The notes beneath the pieces were generated by a model. It saw only the letters and a program-made list of their open reading frames with translations. It had not been told where the DNA came from and searched no databases. From Chthoniobacteraceae bacterium (GTDB lineage: Bacteria; Verrucomicrobiota; Verrucomicrobiia; Chthoniobacterales; Chthoniobacteraceae): a DNA stretch of 39,603 nucleotides. The stretch lies in assembly GCA_028714515.1 (NCBI GenBank), contig JAQTMF010000004.1, forward strand, positions 1 to 39,603. The letters are read 5' to 3'. Below are positions 3,740 through 37,445 of the stretch, piece after piece. Positions within the stretch are counted from its first letter, which is position 1. Each line of letters starts with the position of its first letter. A program made the translations under genes and the position numbers.

Positions 3740-5955
3740 TGCGCATGAAGCCGCCGCGTTGGGTTCGATGGGCCGCCGGTTTCGGCGCAGTCCTTGCGGC
3801 GTGGGCGGGCTGGTTCCTCTATTTTGCTCCGCTTCCGGCTTATCTTGCCCGGAACGCGGAGCTGACCACGCGGTATCTCGATGCAAAGGGGCGGCTCATT
3901 GCCGAAATCCCGGGCGCGGAGGCTCGGTCTCATCGGCCGGTGCCGCTGAGCGCCATGGGGCCCTGGATGCCTGAGTTTACAGTCGCTTTGGAGGATCAGC
4001 ACTTCAAACGCCATCCAGGAATCGATGTTCGCGCTACGGTCCGCGCCTTTTTCAGGCGGCGTGGCGGCGGATCGACGATCACCGAGCAGTACATCAAAGT
4101 CGCCTCGGGGCGCAAAGGCCGTTCCCTGTGGCGGAAAGCATGGGAGAAGGCGCTGGCCGTGCAATTGGAGCGGCGCTGGAGCAAGGCGCGGATTCTCGAA
4201 GCCTATCTGGACCGGATTTCCTACGGGAACCGCCTCGCGGGGGTGGAAGCCGCTTCGCGGGCTTATTTTGGCAAACCGGCGGCAACCCTCACGAAAGCGG
4301 AGGCGGCCTATCTTGCCGGGCTGCCCCAGTCTCCCGTGCGCTGCAATCCGTGGACCCGCCCGGATGAAGCCGCGCGGCAGTTCGCGCGGTCCGTCCGCTT
4401 GCTGTCGGTGCGAGGCGTTCTTCCGCAGGGCGAATTGGCCCCGGAAAACCCGCCGCTTGTCGAGCGGCATTTGCCGCAAAACCTCGCTCCCCATTTCATC
4501 CAGGCCGTGGCGTCCGAAGCCCCGCGCAATCAGGCGCGCGTGTTCGGCGTGGCCCATTGCACCCTCGACCTCGACTTGCAGCAGCGGGTTCAGGCGATGG
4601 TCCAGAATCATCTGAACGCGCTCCGCCGGGAAGACATCAGCCAGGCCGCGGTAGTGGTTCTCGATCATACCACCGGAGCGGTCCGGGCGCTTGTCGGATC
4701 GCGGAATATCGCGGTGGGCGATGGGCAGATCAACGGCGCGCTGCAATACCGCAACTGCGGCTCCACGCTCAAACCGTTCCTTTACCTTACCTGCATCGAA
4801 CGGCGGGTGTTCACTGCGGCCACCTTGCTGCCGGATACGGCGGATGCCGTCCGCGAAGCCTTTCCCGGTTACGATCCTCACAATTTCGCTTTGAGCTATC
4901 TCGGCCCCGTGCGGGTGCGCGACGCGCTGGCCAACTCCCTGAATGTTCCCGCCGTCGTGGCGTTGAGCCGGATCGGATCGCGCCGGGCTTTCGTGAGCAT
5001 GAAGGAATGGGGCCTTCGCTTCGACCATCCGATCGAGGAGGCCGGGGCCGGGTTCATCCTGGGTAATGTCGGCACCCGGCTTCTCGACCTTACCAATGCT
5101 TATGCGGGGCTTGCGCGAGGCGGCTTGGCGGGGCCGCCCCTTTTGGTCGCGGGCCCCTCTCCCGGATGGAAGCGCATTGCTTCTCCCGAAGCCGTGCAGA
5201 TTATCACGGACATCCTCTGCGACAACGATGCCCGGTTTCGCAGCTTTGGCGCCTGGTCTCCCCTCGCGACTCCCGTTCGCGTCGGGGCCAAGACGGGCAC
5301 CAGTTCCGATTTCCGGGACGGCTGGGCCATCGGGTTTACGCGGGAGCACACCGTCGGCGTCTGGGTTGGGAACTTCGACGGGCACCCGATGGGACACGCC
5401 GCTTCCATCGAGGCGGCCGCTCCGCTTTGGCGGATGCTTATCGACGCGCTTCTGGAAGAGGACCACCCTGTTCCGCAGCCATCGCTCCCGCGTACGAGGA
5501 TTTGTGCGCTGACGGGCCTGCTCCCGTGTGCCGCCAGCCCTGGCGCCATGGGGGAACTCTTCCTCCCGGGGACGGAGCCCAAAGAGAGCGCCGAGCGTTG
5601 GTTCGGCCCCGATGGCCACCCGCTGCTCCCGGCGGAGTACACCGGTTGGTGCGCCTCGCCGGAAAATACGCTGCACGCCACGATCCAGCCGGATCTTTCG
5701 AAACTGACAATCCTCAACCCGAGGGAAGGCGCGGTATTTCTGTTGAATGCCGACCTGCCCGCCTCTCAGCAACAGCTCGAAATGCGCGTCAACCTCCCGG
5801 AGGGCGCTGCCTGGAAATTGAATGGGAAACCGCTGGCGGCACCTGCAAATGGCCGCTTGCTTTGGCAACTCCAGGAGGGAGCGTGGGTCTTGGAAGTAGG
5901 CAACAGTTCCGCAAACCAGCTCCGGCATTTTTCCGTCAAAAAGGCCGATTTCTAG
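3739..5955 (+). CDS. pbpC: Penicillin-binding protein 1C (transglycosylase/transpeptidase)
   Basis: N-terminal TM; glycosyltransferase-51 motifs (ALEDQHFKRHPGID, GGSTITEQYIK); transpeptidase motifs STLK, SLN, KTGT; C-terminal BiPBP-like region; downstream of the A2M gene. Confidence 0.9.
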   Translation: MRMKPPRWVRWAAGFGAVLAAWAGWFLYFAPLPAYLARNAELTTRYLDAKGRLIAEIPGAEARSHRPVPLSAMGPWMPEFTVALEDQHFKRHPGIDVRATVRAFFRRRGGGSTITEQYIKVASGRKGRSLWRKAWEKALAVQLERRWSKARILEAYLDRISYGNRLAGVEAASRAYFGKPAATLTKAEAAYLAGLPQSPVRCNPWTRPDEAARQFARSVRLLSVRGVLPQGELAPENPPLVERHLPQNLAPHFIQAVASEAPRNQARVFGVAHCTLDLDLQQRVQAMVQNHLNALRREDISQAAVVVLDHTTGAVRALVGSRNIAVGDGQINGALQYRNCGSTLKPFLYLTCIERRVFTAATLLPDTADAVREAFPGYDPHNFALSYLGPVRVRDALANSLNVPAVVALSRIGSRRAFVSMKEWGLRFDHPIEEAGAGFILGNVGTRLLDLTNAYAGLARGGLAGPPLLVAGPSPGWKRIASPEAVQIITDILCDNDARFRSFGAWSPLATPVRVGAKTGTSSDFRDGWAIGFTREHTVGVWVGNFDGHPMGHAASIEAAAPLWRMLIDALLEEDHPVPQPSLPRTRICALTGLLPCAASPGAMGELFLPGTEPKESAERWFGPDGHPLLPAEYTGWCASPENTLHATIQPDLSKLTILNPREGAVFLLNADLPASQQQLEMRVNLPEGAAWKLNGKPLAAPANGRLLWQLQEGAWVLEVGNSSANQLRHFSVKKADF

Positions 5956-9214: not shown

Positions 9215-12200
9215 ATGAGAACTCTCCCAATGCGGACGGGTCGCCGCTCGCTTCTCTTTTGGTTTTGGTTGTGCTGTCTGCTGCTCCTGGGCGGCGTCGC
9301 GGCGTCAGCGGACGAGGCGCGGCACCTGCGGCTCGCCGTGAACTGCGTGGAAAATGGCCGTCCCGCGCCCGAGATCCAGGATCTGATTACGGCAAGCCTT
9401 TCCAAGGAGCCGGAGGTGGAGATGATCGAACGCGCGCGGATCGAGCTTTTGCTGGGGGAGGGCGGGGCGATTCAGAATCCGGAACGCCGGATTCAACTGG
9501 GGCGTATTCTTTCGCTCGACTACTTCCTGAACTTCCGCCGGAGCGGCGAAGCAGGGAAAGGCGCGGCCACGTGGAGCGTGGAAGTGGTCAACGCGCAGAG
9601 CGGGGAACTGGTGACGGGCGGATCCGTGGTGGTGAAGGCCGATCCGGTGGAAACCTTGACGGCGCATGCGTTGACGCTGATTCACCGCGACCTCGCCGGA
9701 AAGCCCGCCGCCGGGCCGGGGGCCGCGGCGGCCCGCGTGGCCGTGCTGGATTTCGTGCCGGAGCCGAAGGGCGCGGTGGAGAAGGTCGGGCAGGCCTTGC
9801 GGCTGAGTGCGGACGTGCGTGCCTTTTTGAACAGCGGCGGGCTGACGGTGCTCGACCGCGCGCTGGCGGAGACGGTGGTGCGGGAAAACGGCTATCTTCA
9901 GGAGGGCTTTGTGGAAAACAGGACGGACCGCCAGCCATTGCTGGGGGCCGACGTCGTCGTCACCGGGAACCTCGGAACGGAGGGCGCGGAGACGCGGCTG
10001 GAGATGACGCTGCTGGGCACGCGGGAGGGCCGGGTGCTGGCAGCCAGGCACTTTGCCTACCGGCCGGACAAGGAAGGGGGCAGCCTGCCGGAGGAGGCGC
10101 GGCAATGGCTCGTCGAAACACTGCATCCGGCCCGGAGCGCGGAGCGCACGTTCGAGGAAACGATCCAGATCGAAGCGCTGGAGCCGTTCTACCAGGGGAT
10201 CGCCAAGTTCTGCGCCGGGCAATATCTCGAAGCCAGCGAGGAATTCCAGAAGGCGTATACCTCGAACGATAAGTTTGGCGACGCCATGCTCTGGGAGGCG
10301 CGGTGTTACGACGCGCTGAAGCTCAAGCCGCTGGCGGACGCCGAGCGGCGGTTCGTGAAGCTCGGGCTCCTGGGGCGCGGGACCGCCAGTTCGGGAAAGG
10401 CGTGCCCGGACGACGCCATCACATTCCTCGGGATCACCGGCGCGGGCGGGCAGGAGGAACGGGTGTTCGCCGAAACAGTGGAGATGCTGGCGATTGACCG
10501 GCTGGCCCGCGAGGGATCGCGCCTTCAGCTTGCGAGCCACCTCGCGCGGCTGCGCGATGAATACGACGTGCTCGTGGGGACGGACAACGCGCAAGGCACG
10601 CGCTGGACGGAGACGCCCAGCTTCCTTTCCAGCCGCAGTTTGCGTGGAGAGCTTGGACCGGCGAATGCCGAGGGAACGCGCGGCGTTTCGTGGTTTTTGG
10701 TGGATACGCTGACCGGCAAGACCGTGACCAAAACCAGCACGCGCTTGGGGAAAAATCCCGCCGACTGGAAGAAACGGGTCGCGCAGGGGATTGCCGATCT
10801 TCTCAAATCCGGCGAAGGGGCGGTTGCGGCCACGGATGGTCCGGCCGCCCCGATCCCGCTGGTCGCGGAGCTTGAAAAACAGCTCTCCGGCCGCAACGGA
10901 CCGGCCGCCAACAGGCCGCTTTTGCAACTGGCTCTCGCGGATCCCGACAACCGGCTGCTTGCCGGACGCGCGCTTGCCAAAGGGGCGGAAGGCCGGGCGG
11001 AGTTTGACGCAATGATGAACTTCGCGTTCCGGGATTTCCTCCTCTCAAAAATGTCCCCGCAAAATCCGAACCGTCCCTGGCTGGAATTGCAGCGTCTGGA
11101 AACCTTTCTCCCCTTTGACCAGACGGGCGCTTATCTCTCGGGCAGCAGCGTGGACGCGCGAGCTGGCTTGACCGGTTTCGTGGCGGCTCATCCCGCCGAT
11201 ATTCCGGGCTGTCTCGCCGAATATATCCTGCTCTACGATCAGCTTGGCTCCCTGGCGCCGGAGGGGCTCGCGGATCGCTTGGTGCAACTGGAAACACGGC
11301 TTGAAAGCCTCAACGGCGCGGAGGCCAATGGCCTGTCGGAACTTCGCGGAATGACCCGGGCCCTTCGGATTACGGCGCAGATCGCGACAGGAAAAGACAC
11401 CGCGCAAAAACTGCCGACGGATATCTTCGCCCAGCGGCTCCGCATCGAATTTGACCGGGACGGCAAACCGGCGATTCGCCGCAGATGGGGATGGCTGACG
11501 ATGGTATGGAGGAATATCGCGGCGGCGGCAACCAACCGGGAGGAGGAAGCCCGTGCGTCGCTCGCGGTGCTCGGCCGGGGCGACGAATTGCGGCGGATCG
11601 ATCCCCGGTGGCTTCGCGATTATCCCACTTCCTGCGGGATGATGTTTTTCGTCATCGACGGCCTGCACGAAGTGAACCACATGTTTGGGAAGCCGTTTTT
11701 TTATGAGTTCGACGCGGCGGCCGAGCGCGGGAAGTTCCGCGACATGACGGCCTATGCCCATCACAATCTGATGCGGCAACTCGATCTGGCTTCCACCCGG
11801 CACGATGTCAATTACCTGGAGCCGTGGGTGGATCAATTCGTTCAATATCTGACGGAGCCGGCCTACCTCAACACCGTCACCGACCAGGAATGGGAGACGA
11901 TGCGCCAGGAGTTGATCGTCCACATGGACGAGGCGAATGAGCGGGTGGGACGGGTGAAGTCGTTCGACTCCCACCGCTTTGCCGCGGACTGGCGGTTGAT
12001 GAGCCGCCGTCCGCCCGCCGAGGATGCGCCGGATCGCGAGACCGTCTTGGCGCGGGAACGGCCTGATCGCGTCCAGCTTCTCCAAGAGGAGCAAAGGGTG
12101 GGGGACGCGGCATGGCAAAATGCTCCCGCCACCAACCGGGCTTGGACGGACCTTGTTCACACGTGGCGTTTCGACAAGCAGTTCAACGCGCGGGAAAAAG

Positions 12201-18426: not shown

Positions 18427-19368
18427 ATGCGAATTCGCGAACATTCCGTTTGCCATGGCCTGGGGAGGATCCTGCCCGGCCTGGGCTGCCTCGTGGCCGG
18501 GTTGGCCGTTCTGCTCCTTTTTGCCTGCTGCAAGGACGCCAAAAAGAGCCGCTATAGCCCCGAATATGCGGCCGGTGCGAATAGTAAAGTCCCCGTCTAT
18601 CTTTTCGGGGTCGATGCCGGGTTTAACCCCCAACGCCTGACGGAGGCTTACGGCCCTCTCATCGATTATCTGAACGGGAAACTGGTGGACGCGAAGCTCC
18701 AACTGGAAGCCTCGCGCTCCTACGAATCGTTCACCGAGAAACTCTACGACCGCCATTTCCAGTTTGCCCTGGCCAACCCCTACCAGACGATCAACTCCTT
18801 CAAACACGGCTATCGGGTCTTTGGCAAAAGAGGAGAAGATGACAAGTTCCGCGGCATTATCCTGGTCCGAAAAGACAGCGGAATCCAAACGGTGGCCGAC
18901 CTGAAAGGCAAGACGATCAGTTTCCCTTCCCCCCTCTCGATGGCGGCCACGATGATGCCGCTCTACTACCTTCACACCCACGGGCTGGATGTGAACCGCG
19001 ATATCAAACGCCTCTACGTCGGTTCCCATGAATCGGCCATCATGAATGTCTACCTGGGGCGATCCGCCGCCGCCGCGGTCTGGCCTCCTCCGTGGCTGGC
19101 CTTCGTGGAGCGGAACCCGCAAATCGCCGCCGAGTTGGTCGTAAAGTGGGAAACCCCTTCGCTCATCAACAATGCGTTGCTTGTCCGCGACGACGTTCCG
19201 CAGGAAGTCGTCGACCAAGTGGCCGCGTTGCTATTCTCCCTGCACACCCATGCGGAGGGCCGGGCGCTGCTGGCGGCCTTGCCGCTGGAGCGCTTTGAAC
19301 GCGCGACCGACGCCACCTACCGGCCGGTGTACGAGTTCATGGAAAAGTACAACGCCGCCGTGCATTGA
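18427..19368 (+). CDS. PhnD-like phosphate/phosphite/phosphonate periplasmic-binding lipoprotein
   Basis: Lipobox-like [33 protein letters not shown].., [26 protein letters not shown] typical of the PhnD family. Confidence 0.8.
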
Positions 19369-19385
19369 GGAAAGACGAGGCCTCC

Positions 19386-21611
<2,226 letters not shown>

Positions 21612-21626
<15 letters not shown>

Positions 21627-22067
21627 CGGGAGCGACATTCGGACGGGCCCCGCTCCCACTCGGGAGAACCCCGCTTTTTGGTAGAGCCGGATGGCCCGCG
21701 CGTTGGTGCTGTCGGTCAAGAGGGTGATTTGAACGGCTCCGATCGACTGCGCAAAACGCACGGTGTGTTGGAGCAAAGAGGTGGCGATCCCCTTTCCACG
21801 GAAGGCGCGGCGCACGATCAGGTCTTCCAGCAGGAGCGCCCGTCCGCCCTGGCTTGCGCTGAAGACGGTCAGCAGGTTTACCATGGCAACGAGGGTTCCG
21901 CCGCGGCGCTCCACGAAGATTCGGCCAAAGCCAAGGTTCCCCACGAGAAGCCGCAACCCGGCGCTTTGCTTGGCGCGGTCGGGGCGGAAGTCCGTTTCCT
22001 GGGCAAACAGTTCGCCCAGCATATCGCACAGTTGCGGGACATCTTCGAGGGTTGCTTCGGTGATCAC
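21612..22067 (-). CDS. GNAT family N-acetyltransferase (paralogue of the 37457-37903 protein)
   Basis: [22 protein letters not shown] acetyl-CoA binding motif; overlaps nifA stop (GTGA) so probably co-translated. Confidence 0.85.
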
Positions 22068-23674
22068 ATTTTGAACCGGTCGATTCCGACTCCATACCGT
22101 TTGACCCGCAGGCCCATGATCCGTTCACTCACGCCAAGCTGCCGGGCCGCCGCGGCCATGTTGCCATGCGTCTCCTTGAGCGCCGCGACGATCATCTCGT
22201 GCTCCAGCGCGGCTACAGCGGTTTCCAAGGTGCCCGACGAGGGCTTCTCCGAGGGATCGGCGGCTTGCAGCGTGGGCGGGAGATGGTGCGCCTGGATGGC
22301 GTCGCCCTGGCAGAGGAGGACGGCCCGCTCGATGCAATTTTGCAGTTCGCGCACGTTGCCCGGCCAGTGGTACATCATCATCAGATCAATGGCCGCCGTG
22401 GAGATGCGCAGGATCCCCTTGCTGTTTTCCTTGCTGTATTTTTCGACGAAGTAATCCGCCAGGAGCAGCATGTCCGACTTGCGTTCGCGCAGCGGCGGCA
22501 CGTAGATCGGGAAGACGTTGAGCCGATAGTAAAGATCGGCGCGGAAGGCGCCTTCTTCCATGAGCCGCTCCAAATCCCGGCTGGTGGCGGCGATGACGCG
22601 CACGTCGCAGCGCTGCGTGGTCTGGCTGCCGACCCGCTCAAACTCGTGCTCCTGGAGGACGCGCAGGAGTTTCACCTGCGTGGCCGGGGTCAGGTCGCCG
22701 ATTTCGTCCAGGAAGAGCGTGCCGCCGTCGGCCAGCTCGAACCGGCCTTTGCGCATCGCGATGGCTCCCGTGAACGCCCCCTTTTCGTGGCCAAAAAGTT
22801 CGCTTTCCACGATGGACTCCGGCAGCGCGGCGCAGTTGACCTTCACGAATGCCTTGGCGTGGCGCGGGCTGCCGCAGTGGAGGGCGTGGGCCACCAGTTC
22901 CTTGCCGACGCCGCTTTCGCCGCGGATCAGCACGGTCGTTTTGGAATTGGAAACGTGTTCGATATGATTGTAGACGCTCTGCATCGCGCTGGAGCTTCCC
23001 ACCATGTTGCCCGGCTTGTAGTGATTGTGGATCTGCTCCTGGAGGCGGTCGTTCTCATCCCGCAGCTCCGCGATGCGCTCCTCGGCGAGCTGCCGCAGGC
23101 TCACGGCTTGCGCGATGACGGACGCGATGATGGCGAGCATCCGCAGGTCGCGGTCGAAGTTCTCGCCCAGCGAACTGGCCCGCTCGACGCTGAGCGTGCC
23201 CAGGATGCGCTGGCCCGAACGGATCGGCACGCAAAGGAAAGAGAGCGCGGCAAAGGCGGCGGCATGCGGCTCCTGGCCTTTCGCAAAGCGCTCGTCGGCG
23301 GCGACGTTGGCGATGGTCAGCGGCTTGCCGGTATCGATCACCCATTGGAGCAATTCCCTGCCGCGCGGACCGCTCGACACGCCTTGTCCCGACACGGCCG
23401 TCTCGCCCACTTCCTCCACGGCGAGTTCCTGGGTGGCGCGGTTGACGATCGTCACGGCTCCCCGCCGCAGCGTCATCGAGCGGACCATCTGTTTGAGGGC
23501 CTGGCGCAGAATGTGCCGGAGATCGAGGCTTTCCTCCAGGGTTTGCGATATCTCGAAAAGCAGCGTCAGGTCGCGGATGACCCGGCAGGCGCCGACGTCC
23601 ATCGAGGCGAGCGAACCGTGAAGGAGAGAACAATCTGTTTGCGGGCAATCATCGAAAGTTTGGGACTTGAACAT
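22064..23674 (-). CDS. nifA: Sigma-54-dependent Nif/Vnf/Anf-type transcriptional activator
   Basis: GAF domain, AAA+ with [34 protein letters not shown], and C-terminal HTH; embedded in nif cluster. ATG (MFKSQTF) chosen over the GTG 2 codons upstream. Confidence 0.9.
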
Positions 23675-23793
23675 GGGCACGGTGCGGCGAGCAGGGGATC
23701 ACCGCTGCGTTGGCGAAATCTGGACAGATGGATCGGTTGACTTGGGCATATTTGACCAATGGCGAGCGCGCCCGGGGGCGCACCCGCAATCTG

Positions 23794-27704: not shown

Positions 27705-29089
27705 AGGTAGCTATAGCCGATGGGTGAGGAGGTTTGTTTGACGTCCAGGAGGGCGTTGACGATGGTGTCGTAGAGGGCCTGCGCGCCCCGGTAGCCGAGG
27801 TGCAGGATGCGCTGGCCGCCGATCCGGTCGTGAATGGGGAAGCCCACGCGGATGAGCGGCACGCCGAGCTTGCGGGCGAGGGCGTATCCCTTGCTGTTGC
27901 CGATGATGAAGTCGGGCTTGAGGCTTTCCGCCAGCTCCGCGATCTGGGCGAAGTCGATGCCGTCGTGGATGCGGGTCCGTTCGTCCAGCATGGGGAGGAC
28001 CTCGCGCAGGTTCCGCTCCAGGCGGCCGCTCTTTCCGCCCGAGGCGCAGAGAACGGGGAGGATGCCCGTCTCGGCGAGGAATGCCGCGAGGCCGGTCACG
28101 AGATCCTCCTCGCCGTAGACGATGGCCCGCTTTTCGAAGACGTATTTGTGACCGTCGATGAGCGCGTCCACGAGCCGCCCCCGCTCCTTGTTGTATTTTG
28201 CGGGCGTCGGCAGGCCGGAAGCGGCTTCGAGCGCTTCGAACAAAGCGTCCGTTTCGCGCAGGCCGATGGGCAGCCCGAGCCGCCGGTTGGGAATGTTGAA
28301 GCGCTCTTCCAGAAACCGGCCCGCGCTGGGGAAATCGGCGAGCGTGCGGCCGAATTCCAGCGAGCATTGCGCGCACCCGGCCGCATGGATCGCCTCGATC
28401 GGCGTGCCGCCGCTTTGCAGTTTTTCGTATTCGCTCCAGGTCTCGCCGTCCATCGATTCGGAGTAATCCGGCAAAAGGGTGTAGGGGAGGCCGAAGTCAT
28501 CGGCGATCTCCTTCAAATGCCGCAGATCGGCGGCGGACACCATGCCGGGGAAGAGGTTGACCCGCCGCGTCCGGTCGCCCGGGAGGGCCAGAGCGGCCAC
28601 GGCGGCGCGGACGGCGGCGTGGAAGCCGTCGATATGCGTGCCGCTGTAGCTGGGCGTGGAGACCTTGATGAGATGCGGGTGTCCCTCGTGCCACGACTCT
28701 TTGAGGTAGTCGTGGAAGATCCGGTCCATGTCCTCGCCAATCGTCTCGCTGAGGCAGGTGGTGGCGACGGCGACCATTTTGGGTTGGTACTGCCTGATCA
28801 CATTGGAAACTCCAGCCTTGAAGTTGGACGCCCCGCCAAACACGGCCGACTCCTCGGAGAAATTGGACGCGGCGATGTCGATGGGCTCGCGGAAGTGGCT
28901 GATCAAGTAGCGCCGGATGTAGGTGCTGCAACCCTGCGAGCCGTGGAGGAAGGGGATGGTTCCCTCGATGCCCCGGAAGACCAGGCACGCGCCGAGAGGC
29001 GTGCAGAGCTTGCAGGCGTTGCGGGTCGCGGTGCAGTGGTTGAAGCGAGGCTCGTCCAGTTCGTTGTCTATCGCGCTGGTGACGTTCAT
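27701..29089 (-). CDS. nifN: Nitrogenase FeMo-cofactor scaffold protein NifN
   Basis: NACKLCTPLGACLVFRGIEGTIPFLHGSQGCSTYIRRYLISHFREPIDIAASNFSEESAVFGG; ATGA overlap with nifE. Confidence 0.95.
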   Translation of the reverse strand: MNVTSAIDNELDEPRFNHCTATRNACKLCTPLGACLVFRGIEGTIPFLHGSQGCSTYIRRYLISHFREPIDIAASNFSEESAVFGGASNFKAGVSNVIRQYQPKMVAVATTCLSETIGEDMDRIFHDYLKESWHEGHPHLIKVSTPSYSGTHIDGFHAAVRAAVAALALPGDRTRRVNLFPGMVSAADLRHLKEIADDFGLPYTLLPDYSESMDGETWSEYEKLQSGGTPIEAIHAAGCAQCSLEFGRTLADFPSAGRFLEERFNIPNRRLGLPIGLRETDALFEALEAASGLPTPAKYNKERGRLVDALIDGHKYVFEKRAIVYGEEDLVTGLAAFLAETGILPVLCASGGKSGRLERNLREVLPMLDERTRIHDGIDFAQIAELAESLKPDFIIGNSKGYALARKLGVPLIRVGFPIHDRIGGQRILHLGYRGAQALYDTIVNALLDVKQTSSPIGYSYL

Positions 29090-30474
29090 GGTTGGGCTCC
29101 TTTCAGCTTGGCGGCCCGGCGGGGAGCGAACTGCCAGACCGGGCTCATGACGGAGGAATAGACCTCGCGGGCGAAATGGAGCATGCCGATGAACCCGGCC
29201 AGCGGCTCCTTGCGCTCGTGATTGTGATCGCAGAAGCCGATCCCCATTTTGTAGGCGATGGGCCGCTCCTTCACGCCGCCGATGAAAAGATCCACATCCT
29301 TTTGCAGGCAGAACTTGGCGAGTTCGAGCGGGTTGGAGTCGTCCACGATGATCGTGCCGGGATCGCACATTTCCTGGAGCTGCTTGTAATCCTCCGCGCC
29401 GCCGGTCTGCGAGCCGACCACCGCCGTCTCCATGCCGAGCATCTTGAGCGCGCGAACCAGCGAGAACGCCTTGAACGCGCCGCCCACGTAGATGGCCGCC
29501 TTCTTCCCCTGGAGCTTGGCGCGGTAGGCGCGCAGTTGCGGCCAGATCAGCGCCACCTCGTCGCGCACGAGCGCCTGCGCCCGTTCCATGATCGTGGGAT
29601 CGTCGGCAAAAAACTTGGCGGTTTCATAAAGCGCGGCGGACATGTCCTCGATGCCGAAATACGAGACGCGCTTCACGGGAATGCCGTAATCGCGTTCCAT
29701 CACCTTGGCCAGGTGCATCATGGAGCCGGAGCATTGCACGAGATTGAGCTTCGCGCCGTGCGCACGGCGGATGTCCTCCACCCGGGCGTCGCCGGTGATG
29801 CAGCTCACCACGTTGACGCCGATGCGTTGGTAGTAATCGCGGATGATCCAGGTTTCGCCCGCGAGGTTGAAGTCGCCCAGAATGTTGATGCTGTGCGGCG
29901 GGATGCCCTCCGTGGGCGCGGTGCCCACCAGCTTGTAAACCGCTTCGCAGGCGGCCCGGTAGCCGTCCTTCTTGGTTCCCCTGAACCCTTCGGAGTTGAC
30001 CGGCAGGACCGGGATGCCTTTTTCCGCCGCGACCCGTTTGCAGATGGCCGCCACATCGTCGCCGATGATTCCGACGATGCATGTGGAGTAGACGAACGCG
30101 GCGTTGGGTTTGTAGAGATCGATCAACTCCGTCAGCGCGTGGTAGAGTTTCTTCTCGCCGCCGTAGATCACATCCATCTCCTGGAGATCGGTGGAGAAGC
30201 TGTTGCGGTGAATCTGCGGACCGCTGGAAAGCGCGCCCCGGATGTCCCAGGTGTAGGCTGCGCAGCCGATGGGGCCATGGACGAGATGCAGGGCGTCCGC
30301 GATGGGATAGAGGACGACACGCGAGCCGCAAAAGACGCACGCCCTTTGGCTCACCGAACCGGCGGCGCTGTGCTTGTCGCAGGCGATCCCGGCTCCCTTG
30401 CCCGCCTCCACGATGGAGGCCTCGCGGACGGGCAGGATGCCGATCTCTGGTTGGCTTGGCGGCATGGGTTGCAT
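29086..30474 (-). CDS. nifE: Nitrogenase FeMo-cofactor scaffold protein NifE
   Basis: RACVFCGSRVVLYPIADALHLVHGPIGCAAYTWDIRG, YSTCIVGIIGDD; upstream of nifN. Exact start uncertain. Confidence 0.95.
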   Translation of the reverse strand: MQPMPPSQPEIGILPVREASIVEAGKGAGIACDKHSAAGSVSQRACVFCGSRVVLYPIADALHLVHGPIGCAAYTWDIRGALSSGPQIHRNSFSTDLQEMDVIYGGEKKLYHALTELIDLYKPNAAFVYSTCIVGIIGDDVAAICKRVAAEKGIPVLPVNSEGFRGTKKDGYRAACEAVYKLVGTAPTEGIPPHSINILGDFNLAGETWIIRDYYQRIGVNVVSCITGDARVEDIRRAHGAKLNLVQCSGSMMHLAKVMERDYGIPVKRVSYFGIEDMSAALYETAKFFADDPTIMERAQALVRDEVALIWPQLRAYRAKLQGKKAAIYVGGAFKAFSLVRALKMLGMETAVVGSQTGGAEDYKQLQEMCDPGTIIVDDSNPLELAKFCLQKDVDLFIGGVKERPIAYKMGIGFCDHNHERKEPLAGFIGMLHFAREVYSSVMSPVWQFAPRRAAKLKGAQP

Positions 30475-30491
30475 GACGCCCGCCCCCTATT

Positions 30492-30506
30492 GCAAGCCGT
30501 GTGCCA
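30492..30506 (-). promoter_or_regulatory. Sigma-54 -24/-12 promoter for nifE: TGGCACA-CGGC-TTGC
   Basis: Reverse complement of gcaagccgtgtgcca; 14/15 compatible with TGGCACG-N4-TTGC; correct strand directly upstream of nifE. Confidence 0.85.
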
Positions 30507-30616: not shown

Positions 30617-30632
30617 GCTACGCATGAGTAGG
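30617..30632. promoter_or_regulatory. Putative activator site (nifE proximal dyad): gCTAC-GCATGA-GTAGG
   Basis: CTAC-N6-GTAG dyad about 118 bp upstream of the nifE -24 element; matches the pair upstream of nifH. Confidence 0.65.
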
Positions 30633-30648
30633 GCCGGGGGAGAGCGAT

Positions 30649-30664
30649 CCTACATTTCGGTAGC
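30649..30664. promoter_or_regulatory. Putative activator site (nifE distal dyad): CCTAC-ATTTCG-GTAGc
   Basis: Shares 16 identical bp (CTACCGAAATGTAGGA) with the distal nifH dyad; 32 bp from the proximal site. Confidence 0.7.
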
Positions 30665-32245
30665 TTTCCGGCCGCAGCACTTCTTTCGCCGGGCAAAGGC
30701 GAGCGCGCCCATCCCGGCGATCAGCAGGGCCCACGCGCCGGGTTCGGGCAACACGGCGAGCGTCAATTCGCTGCCTTCGGTGATGCCGTTGAGGAAAGCG
30801 GCGTTGGTGACATACGTTGCCCCCAGCGAAAGGAGCGCCTTGCTCAAGGGCGTGTATTTCTTGCCATTGAATGAGATCGTTCCATTCAGTTCGTCTTCCA
30901 CGTAGAATTCGAACTGGGCATTTTTGACGGCGGTTTCGAGCGCGGTTGCCGACAGACCGGTGAAAAAACCGCCCAAATACGTTGTGCCCGCGGCGGCGCT
31001 CTTCAAGTAGATCCTGATCGTGTTGTCGGTTGTGAGGTCGCCTGAAAACGGTGTGGCGCCAGTCAAGAGGAGAAGATCGTTCCCGCTGGCCGTGGGGGCG
31101 CTGTAAATAGGGCTGGAATCGGGCAACGTGAACTCGAAAGCGAAATCGATGCCGGTGCTGATCTCCACGGAATCGGCCGTCAAGATGCCGGGGCTGTTGC
31201 CGGGAGAGATCAAGCCCGAGCCGCTGATCGCGCCGGTCGTCAAGGTGCCTTCCAGCGTGCCGTTCACGGCCACCGTTCCACGGACCCTGCCGCTGCCCGC
31301 GAGAGTCGCCCCAATGTGCACGCTGACGGGGCTCGCCGCCGACAACGAGCCGTTCACCTCAAGCCTGCCCGCCGAAACATTCGCCGCGCCGGTGAAGTTG
31401 CTGGATCCCGTAAGAACGGTTGTGCCCGAGCCGAGCTGGTTGACGGTGAGCGTGCCGGAAAGTTGCGGCGCAAAGGTGTAGCCGCCGGTGTGGTTGAAGT
31501 TCACCGTGGCGGCCCCCGCTCCGCCGGTAACGCTGGCGGCACGAAGCGTCCCGGCCGATGCGCCTGTGCCGAGGTTCAGGATGCCAGTCGAGGCGTCTTG
31601 CTCGGCAAGATCGAGATTCCCGGCTCCGCCTTGAACGGAGACGACGCCGTCCTTTTCAAGATTCAGGGTTCCATTCCCGGAATGCCCGACGCAAAGGGAT
31701 TGGGAACTCCAGGTGCCGCCGGAGAGGGTGGCTGTGCCGATGGAATCGCCGTTGCTCCCAATATAACCTGTATTGCTGAGAACCGTTCCTCCCTCGACGT
31801 TCAAAGTTCCCGTGCCGGAATTGCCGACGATCAGCCAGGAGGAATGGCTCCAGGTGCCGCTGGAGACGGTGGCGCTACCGGATGAACCCTGGCCATACCC
31901 AAGGTAGCTATTGGAGTTGGCGATGCTGCCGCCGCTGATGATCAGCGTCCCCGAATTGGAATTGCCGAGGTAAAGATCGCGCGCGGCCCCGGAAACGGCA
32001 GTGGGCACGAGGACCGAGCCTCCGTTGTCGATCGTGGCGTCGGTTGTGGATGCGGGCGCGGCATTGCCGGACCAGTGGCTATTGTCATTCCAGGTGCCCG
32101 AAGAAGGCAGCCACGATTTTGAAGTCGCGCTGGCGGGTGACACCAAAAGGATCATACATCCCGCCGCGAGCAATACGCTTCCCCCCGCGCGCCGTTTTAA
32201 GGCCCGCCGGATCGGCCGTTTGGGCTGCCAGAAGTTGTGTCCCAT
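30650..32245 (-). CDS. PEP-CTERM sorting-domain protein with autotransporter-associated/beta-strand repeats
   Basis: Signal peptide; repeats such as GTATLSGGTWSSQSLCVGHSGNGTLNLEK; C-terminal LPEPGAWALLIAGMGALAFARRKK. Confidence 0.85.
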   Translation of the reverse strand: MGHNFWQPKRPIRRALKRRAGGSVLLAAGCMILLVSPASATSKSWLPSSGTWNDNSHWSGNAAPASTTDATIDNGGSVLVPTAVSGAARDLYLGNSNSGTLIISGGSIANSNSYLGYGQGSSGSATVSSGTWSHSSWLIVGNSGTGTLNVEGGTVLSNTGYIGSNGDSIGTATLSGGTWSSQSLCVGHSGNGTLNLEKDGVVSVQGGAGNLDLAEQDASTGILNLGTGASAGTLRAASVTGGAGAATVNFNHTGGYTFAPQLSGTLTVNQLGSGTTVLTGSSNFTGAANVSAGRLEVNGSLSAASPVSVHIGATLAGSGRVRGTVAVNGTLEGTLTTGAISGSGLISPGNSPGILTADSVEISTGIDFAFEFTLPDSSPIYSAPTASGNDLLLLTGATPFSGDLTTDNTIRIYLKSAAAGTTYLGGFFTGLSATALETAVKNAQFEFYVEDELNGTISFNGKKYTPLSKALLSLGATYVTNAAFLNGITEGSELTLAVLPEPGAWALLIAGMGALAFARRKKCCGRKATEM

Positions 32246-32356
32246 GAATAGTTCATGTTCTCCGGCGGTCCCTGCCAAAAAATAAACGAGTTCGCGAAAT
32301 TACGTATCTAAATTTGGGGCCATGTTTTTCGGGGCGGGAGCGGGCCCCGTCAAGAC

Positions 32357-35574: not shown

Positions 35575-35952
35575 TTATTCCTTGAGTGCTTTGGAGTCGC
35601 GTTCGCCCGTCCGGATGCGGACGGCTTCGTTGACGGCGCTGACGAATATTTTGCCGTCCCCGGGGGCTCCGGTTTTGTTGGCGTCGAGAATGGTTTGGAC
35701 AACGATCGGTGCTTTGTCGTCGGGCACGACGAGCATGAGGAGCCGCTTGGGAATCAAGAGCGGGCCGTCGCCCAGCCGGGCAATGGCTTCTTCGTTGCCC
35801 TCCTTGGCGGCGTTGATGACCCGGAAGTCGACGCTCCCCTTGCCGCGGCCCAGCACCTTGCGGGCCGTGCAGGCGTAAACCCCGATGCCGATCAGCGCTT
35901 CGCGCGTGGCGTTGGCCATCTGGGGCCGGATGATGGCGGTGATTTGCTTCAT
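35575..35952 (-). CDS. nifI2: PII-family nitrogenase regulatory protein NifI2
   Basis: MKQITAIIRPQMANATREAL..., GDGKIFVSAVNEAVRIRTGE; located between nifH and nifD after NifI1, ATGA overlap. Confidence 0.92.
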   Translation of the reverse strand: MKQITAIIRPQMANATREALIGIGVYACTARKVLGRGKGSVDFRVINAAKEGNEEAIARLGDGPLLIPKRLLMLVVPDDKAPIVVQTILDANKTGAPGDGKIFVSAVNEAVRIRTGERDSKALKE

Positions 35953-36296
35953 GCGAGCGCGGCCTCCTCTTCCTCGTCTTTGGCCCCCTTGCTGATGGTA
36001 TAGGATTCCTCGACCGGCGAGACGAAGATCTTGCCGTCGCCGAAGGCTCCCTTTTCGCCCGTCCGCGCCGCGCGCAGGATGGTGTTGATGATGGTCGTCT
36101 GGTCCTCGTTCTTGGCGACGACCAGCAGCATCTCCTTGGGAAGCTCGTCGTAGATGACTTCGCCGACCTTCAGACCGCGTTGTTTGCCGCGCCCGAAGAC
36201 ATCGATTTTCGTCACCGCCGGGAACCCGCCGTCGAGGAGGGCTTTCATGACGATGTGCACTTTTTCGGGACGGACGATTGCTTGAACCTGAATCAT
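35949..36296 (-). CDS. nifI1: PII-family nitrogenase regulatory protein NifI1
   Basis: MIQVQAIVRPEKVHIVMKALLDGGFPAVTKIDVFGRGKQRGLKVGEVIYDELPKEML.., GDGKIFVSPVEESYTI; downstream of nifH. Confidence 0.92.
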   Translation of the reverse strand: MIQVQAIVRPEKVHIVMKALLDGGFPAVTKIDVFGRGKQRGLKVGEVIYDELPKEMLLVVAKNEDQTTIINTILRAARTGEKGAFGDGKIFVSPVEESYTISKGAKDEEEEAALA

Positions 36297-36356: not shown

Positions 36357-37343
<987 letters not shown>

Positions 37344-37395: not shown

Positions 37396-37411
37396 CCTAC
37401 CCGCTGGTAGG
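37396..37411. promoter_or_regulatory. Putative activator site (nifH proximal dyad): CCTAC-CCGCTG-GTAGG
   Basis: Perfect dyad (GCCTAC/GTAGGC, 37395-37412), about 130 bp upstream of the nifH -24 element. Confidence 0.7.
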
Positions 37412-37423
37412 CCTATTCTCTTT

Positions 37424-37445
37424 GGTCCTACCGAAATGTAGGACC
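37424..37445. promoter_or_regulatory. Putative activator site (nifH distal dyad): GGTCCTAC-CGAAAT-GTAGGACC
   Basis: Perfect 8-bp arms, N6 centre, 31 bp centre-to-centre from the proximal dyad; near-copy upstream of nifE. Confidence 0.75.

Follow-up and report, generated by a model that had tools for sequence, protein, structure and literature searches.

Paired CTAC-N6-GTAG dyads upstream of nifH and nifE in a Chthoniobacteraceae bacterium: candidate enhancers for a NifA-like activator

We found that nifE and nifH of a Chthoniobacteraceae bacterium are each preceded by a pair of CTAC-N6-GTAG dyads, and judging from their sequence, position and distribution among relatives, these pairs very likely act as paired enhancers for the NifA-like sigma-54 activator encoded at 22064-23680 of the same window (the whole 39.6-kb stretch of DNA that was analyzed). 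Beyond what an initial annotation of the window had described, the analysis yielded (i) a likely reader protein; (ii) a consensus for the sites; (iii) their wider distribution; and (iv) a resemblance to AnfA and VnfA sites, together with a departure from the canonical NifA site.

Two dyad pairs in the nif cluster

The minus strand of the window carries nifH, nifI1, nifI2, nifD, nifK, an ORF with a PEP-CTERM motif, nifE, a nifN-like gene, nifB, nifV and the gene for the NifA-like activator. Both nifH (36357-37181, minus strand; TIGR01287, 452 bits) and nifE (29086-30474, minus strand; TIGR01283, 624 bits) score above the cut-offs of their families. The window contains four exact CTAC-N6-GTAG sequences (30618, 30650, 37397 and 37428). 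They form two pairs, 5' of nifE and nifH, and each pair has a strong -24/-12 element downstream.

At nifE, the proximal dyad (gCTAC-GCATGA-GTAGG, 30617-30632) and the distal dyad (CCTAC-ATTTCG-GTAGc, 30649-30664) start 32 bp apart, exactly as initially annotated. The accompanying distances of 118 and 150 bp to the nifE promoter were nearly right, the dyad centers lying 119 and 151 bp upstream of the -24/-12 element (30491-30506, minus strand; TGGCACACGGCTTGCA), which shows zero mismatches to the consensus that we used. At nifH, the proximal dyad (CCTAC-CCGCTG-GTAGG, 37396-37411) and the distal dyad (CCTAC-CGAAAT-GTAGG, about 37427-37442) are 31 bp apart and lie 131 and 162 bp from the sigma-54 element (37258-37273, minus strand; TGGCACGCGCCTTGCG). 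Hence, as in sigma-54 enhancers, a correctly oriented -24/-12 element is found downstream of the dyads at both genes, and all four sites fall within the range of about 80-200 bp upstream of that element. The two-site geometry, initially described as the same at both promoters, is very similar rather than identical, as the spacing is 32 versus 31 bp and the distance to the box is shifted by about 12 bp, close to one turn of the helix. The reported 16-bp identity holds: the nifE distal dyad on the minus strand and the nifH distal dyad on the plus strand, inverted with respect to each other, both read CTACCGAAATGTAGGA.

The ORF between nifK and nifE (30650-32278, minus strand) encodes a PEP-CTERM protein with T5SS repeats, and its TAG stop codon is part of the nifE distal dyad. 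Two genes for PII-like proteins, nifI1 and nifI2 (35575-36296, minus strand), separate nifH from nifD, and a hybrid histidine kinase (sCache, HisKA and receiver domains; 19365-21626, plus strand) is encoded convergently to the NifA-like gene.

We considered the possibility that the dyads are chance palindromes. Single exact dyads are indeed no more common in the genome than a reversed control (12 versus 21), so that it is the pairing and the placement of the sites, not their number, that are exceptional. The eight copies outside the window all fall inside ORFs, and none has a sigma-54 box less than 400 bp away. However, 300 dinucleotide-shuffled versions of the window contained a mean of 0.03 exact dyads, a maximum of one and no pair at all, in agreement with the initial judgment that two such pairs are very unlikely to arise by chance, and CTAC alone among all four-base N6 dyads of the window forms two close pairs. 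A search of 388 genomes from the phylum detected the paired pattern in only five places in four genomes, all of them before nif genes and all among the 31 genomes with a NifE-like match; two of the places are those in the window, and the other three are situated just upstream of nifH in G039, G091 and G315. Together with the retention of pairs at fixed spacing in relatives, described below, the shuffles rule out chance, to which we assign practically no probability.

Conservation of the dyads in relatives

Phylogenetic footprinting, which had been proposed as a check, was informative. Both pairs are retained in L054 (Spartobacteria UBA695), the nearest named relative, whose NifE is 91% identical; its nifH dyads are found at 5489 and 5522 and its nifE dyads at 9813 and 9845. 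In the promoter alignment the boxes, including that of nifE, and the dyad arms are conserved amid diverged flanks. Per 18 bp, identity to L054 is 18 at the nifH distal, 13 at the nifH proximal, 12 at the nifE distal and 16 at the nifE proximal site, and the eight arm bases CTAC/GTAG are intact at all four. At the nifE distal site of L054 the arms are kept around a different central hexamer, AAAATT. The conserved part of the sites is the arms, and the identity of the central hexamers within the window should not be over-read; a functional reading of the full 16-bp match is weakened by this variation. The persistence of both pairs between diverged flanks supports the proposal of paired activator sites in which the dyad matters rather than its orientation. 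In L054, the gap between nifK and nifE is about 334 bp; the PEP-CTERM ORF is absent from it, and nifI1 and nifI2 were not found between nifH and nifD.

More distant relatives are less uniform at nifE. Geminisphaera TAV2 has a weaker, degenerate pair 149 and 118 bp before the nifE box, and G315 has one perfect dyad 119 bp from the box before nifE. In most others, nifE follows closely behind nifK or lacks a good sigma-54 box, so that the nifE pair belongs to those lineages that have a separate nifE promoter. Counting dyads before nifE at all loci gave no useful signal, since the majority of these regions are nifK coding sequence.

Before nifH, we counted all three- and four-base dyads with gaps of 3-14 in 81 upstream regions, with none preselected. 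TAC-N6-GTA was observed 51 times against 3.5 expected, and CTAC-N6-GTAG was the top four-base dyad (37 of the 81 regions against 0.3 expected), although the sequences are related and z values are therefore inflated. Fifty strong sites gave the consensus TCCTAC-N6-GTAGGA with an A/T-leaning center. The spacing within pairs is 28 bp in eight of nine Chlorobiota and 30-31 bp in 20 of 23 others, while shuffled nifH upstream regions gave 0.02 sequences with a pair. The Chlorobiota dyads keep nearly constant distances to the box, of about 163 and 191 bp. As a dyad score of 8/10 is reached by chance in about one in ten shuffled upstream regions, isolated weak sites in certain relatives should be viewed with caution. 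Four loci, mainly from Opitutales (L063, L065, L071 and L072), have the variant CCGAC-N6-GTCGG before nifH, in which both arms are altered together; this paired change fits a symmetric protein site and suggests a shift in operator specificity.

We also weighed whether the dyads might form hairpins in RNA or DNA and serve, for instance, as terminators for the genes upstream, since both pairs lie just behind a gene on the same strand and the nifH pair can fold into two hairpins (z of -3.5 on one strand and -4.5 on the other). The nifE pair, however, folds no better than shuffled sequences (z of -1.5 and -1.0), no T run is present, and the dyad positions in relatives track the sigma-54 box regardless of the upstream gene. 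The lack of a fold at nifE and the tracking of the promoter rule out terminators, and we regard hairpins as highly improbable.

A candidate activator and its recognition helix

The favored reader of the dyads, the product of the minus-strand gene at 22064-23680 behind nifV, has the GAF, AAA+ (with GAFTGA) and Fis-type HTH architecture by which a NifA encoded with nif genes is recognized in terms of function. Its score against TIGR01817 (504.3 bits) is below the cut-off of 528.85, but this is still its best-scoring family by far. Its recognition helix has the form R..GLR, which differs from the helix of Azotobacter vinelandii NifA (LGMTPRQIAYRI).

Helix and operator were compared at 46 loci that offered a readable activator as well as a nifH upstream region, with a dyad threshold of at least 8/10. 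All 30 loci with an R..GLR helix reached it, compared with two of 16 with an R..xY[RK] helix. As the R..GLR activators all fall into one group with good support in the tree (100/94), this association amounts to about one evolutionary switch rather than 46 independent trials, and the Fisher value overstates it; the switch appears to have been maintained across an evolutionary depth of two phyla or more.

The dyads might instead be read by another regulator, either a different sigma-54 activator or a nitrogen- or molybdenum-responsive repressor. The genome does encode six other sigma-54 activators with strong domain matches, and dyads suit repressors as well. Nevertheless, the presence of the dyad tracks the kind of recognition helix in the NifA-like protein, four of the six other activators have HTH helices unlike R..GLR, the sites stand clear of the box, well upstream, and their sequence matches published AnfA and VnfA sites. 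We therefore consider a different reader unlikely.

The initial annotation had held that loss of the pair from relatives with conserved sigma-54 boxes would speak against its interpretation. While L054 retains the pairs, the genomes of family f31 (L149, L165, L166, L185, L186, L189 and L190) keep their nifH boxes without the CTAC dyad. Taken alone, f31 would be such a case, but its activators carry a different helix and its nifH regions share a different, GGAAA-type dyad, with GGAA-N6-TTCC and GGAAAnAAATGTC sites before nifH. The operator of archaeal NrpR is GGAA-N6-TTCC. An NrpR homolog (PF01995) is encoded in five of the seven f31 genomes, and the association across 24 genomes is weak (p 0.06).

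Discussion

Returning to the NifA-like activator as reader, we propose that the nifE and nifH pairs serve as upstream activator sequences of sigma-54 promoters. A dimer of the activator would bind each TCCTAC-N6-GTAGGA-like dyad through the R..GLR helix of its Fis-type HTH domain. With sites about three helical turns apart, two dimers could occupy one face of the DNA, bind cooperatively and promote assembly of the AAA+ domains, although the 28-bp spacing in Chlorobiota does not equal whole helical turns, so that this same-face argument is not valid for all species. The activator would then reach the -24/-12 element by looping across some 120-160 bp and would open the polymerase complex of sigma-54, and the nifH and nifE operons would be switched on together.

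More broadly, a deep clade of NifA-like proteins from Verrucomicrobiota and Chlorobiota with the R..GLR helix probably reads TCCTAC-N6-GTAGGA and shares its code with AnfA and VnfA, in which case TGT-N10-ACA would be one of several nif enhancer codes. If so, at least one more code, of the GGAAA type, is expected in another verrucomicrobial family. This would provide a nif operator code for phyla without the textbook NifA site, predict both the reader protein and its helix, and allow nif regulons to be searched for by sequence in uncultured Verrucomicrobiota and Chlorobiota.

In Proteobacteria, the sites of NifA have the form TGT-N10-ACA (PMC7294313). The elements described here resemble these upstream activator sequences in lying upstream of nif sigma-54 promoters, in their dyad symmetry and in the NifA-type activator, but differ from them in sequence, gap and recognition helix: the dyads themselves do not read TGT/ACA, and no TGT-N10-ACA is present in the 600 bp before nifH.

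The AnfA sites are closer. Rhodobacter capsulatus AnfA binds two TAC-N6-GTA dyads (PMC7294313), and the sites in the window share with them the core and gap, the symmetry, the occurrence of two per promoter and the location upstream of a sigma-54 box, and the activators are likewise of the GAF-AAA+-HTH type. Unlike the AnfA sites, they are extended at the outer bases to TCCTAC...GTAGGA, and they precede nifH and nifE of the molybdenum nitrogenase rather than genes for the iron-only enzyme. Neither this genome nor the 388 genomes sampled from the phylum yielded an AnfD (TIGR01861), and leftover AnfA control was rejected on this ground. Searches with tblastn for AnfA or VnfA on plasmids, using the activator or its HTH as query, listed canonical NifA and unrelated regulators. 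CTAC-N6-GTAG as a literal string had no match in the literature searched, whose coverage mostly excludes subscription journals.

Geminisphaera TAV2 has an anfDGK locus with an AnfD of 1099 bits, above the cut-off. The helix of the adjoining AnfA-like activator (LGLTRRTMGLRMSKY) has the same R..GLR motif, and the protein falls within the R..GLR group on a long branch. This activator (L236, 4540-6120, plus strand) has GHEKGLPDTA at the expected place of GAFTGA, raising the question of how it engages sigma-54. The contig ends just past anfD, and the anfH promoter lies beyond the readable sequence.

In A. vinelandii, VnfA binds GT(T/A)C-N6-GTAC, and most of the promoters contain two motifs (PMC9542535); its sites are also given as GTAC-N6-GTAC (PMC7294313, PMC9542535). 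The six-base gap, the TAC/GTA core, the usual two motifs per promoter and a similar spacing are all shared with the sites described here, but the outer bases are C/G in place of the G/C of VnfA sites, and VnfA controls vanadium nitrogenase genes. In its form, a TAC-N6-GTA dyad commonly occurring twice per promoter, the operator is thus of the AnfA/VnfA type, yet the genes that it precedes, and that it would regulate, are those of the molybdenum nitrogenase rather than anf or vnf structural genes. The findings suggest that a single recognition code underlies both the AnfA and VnfA sites and the nif sites described here, which would bear on how control of the molybdenum and the alternative nitrogenases diverged.
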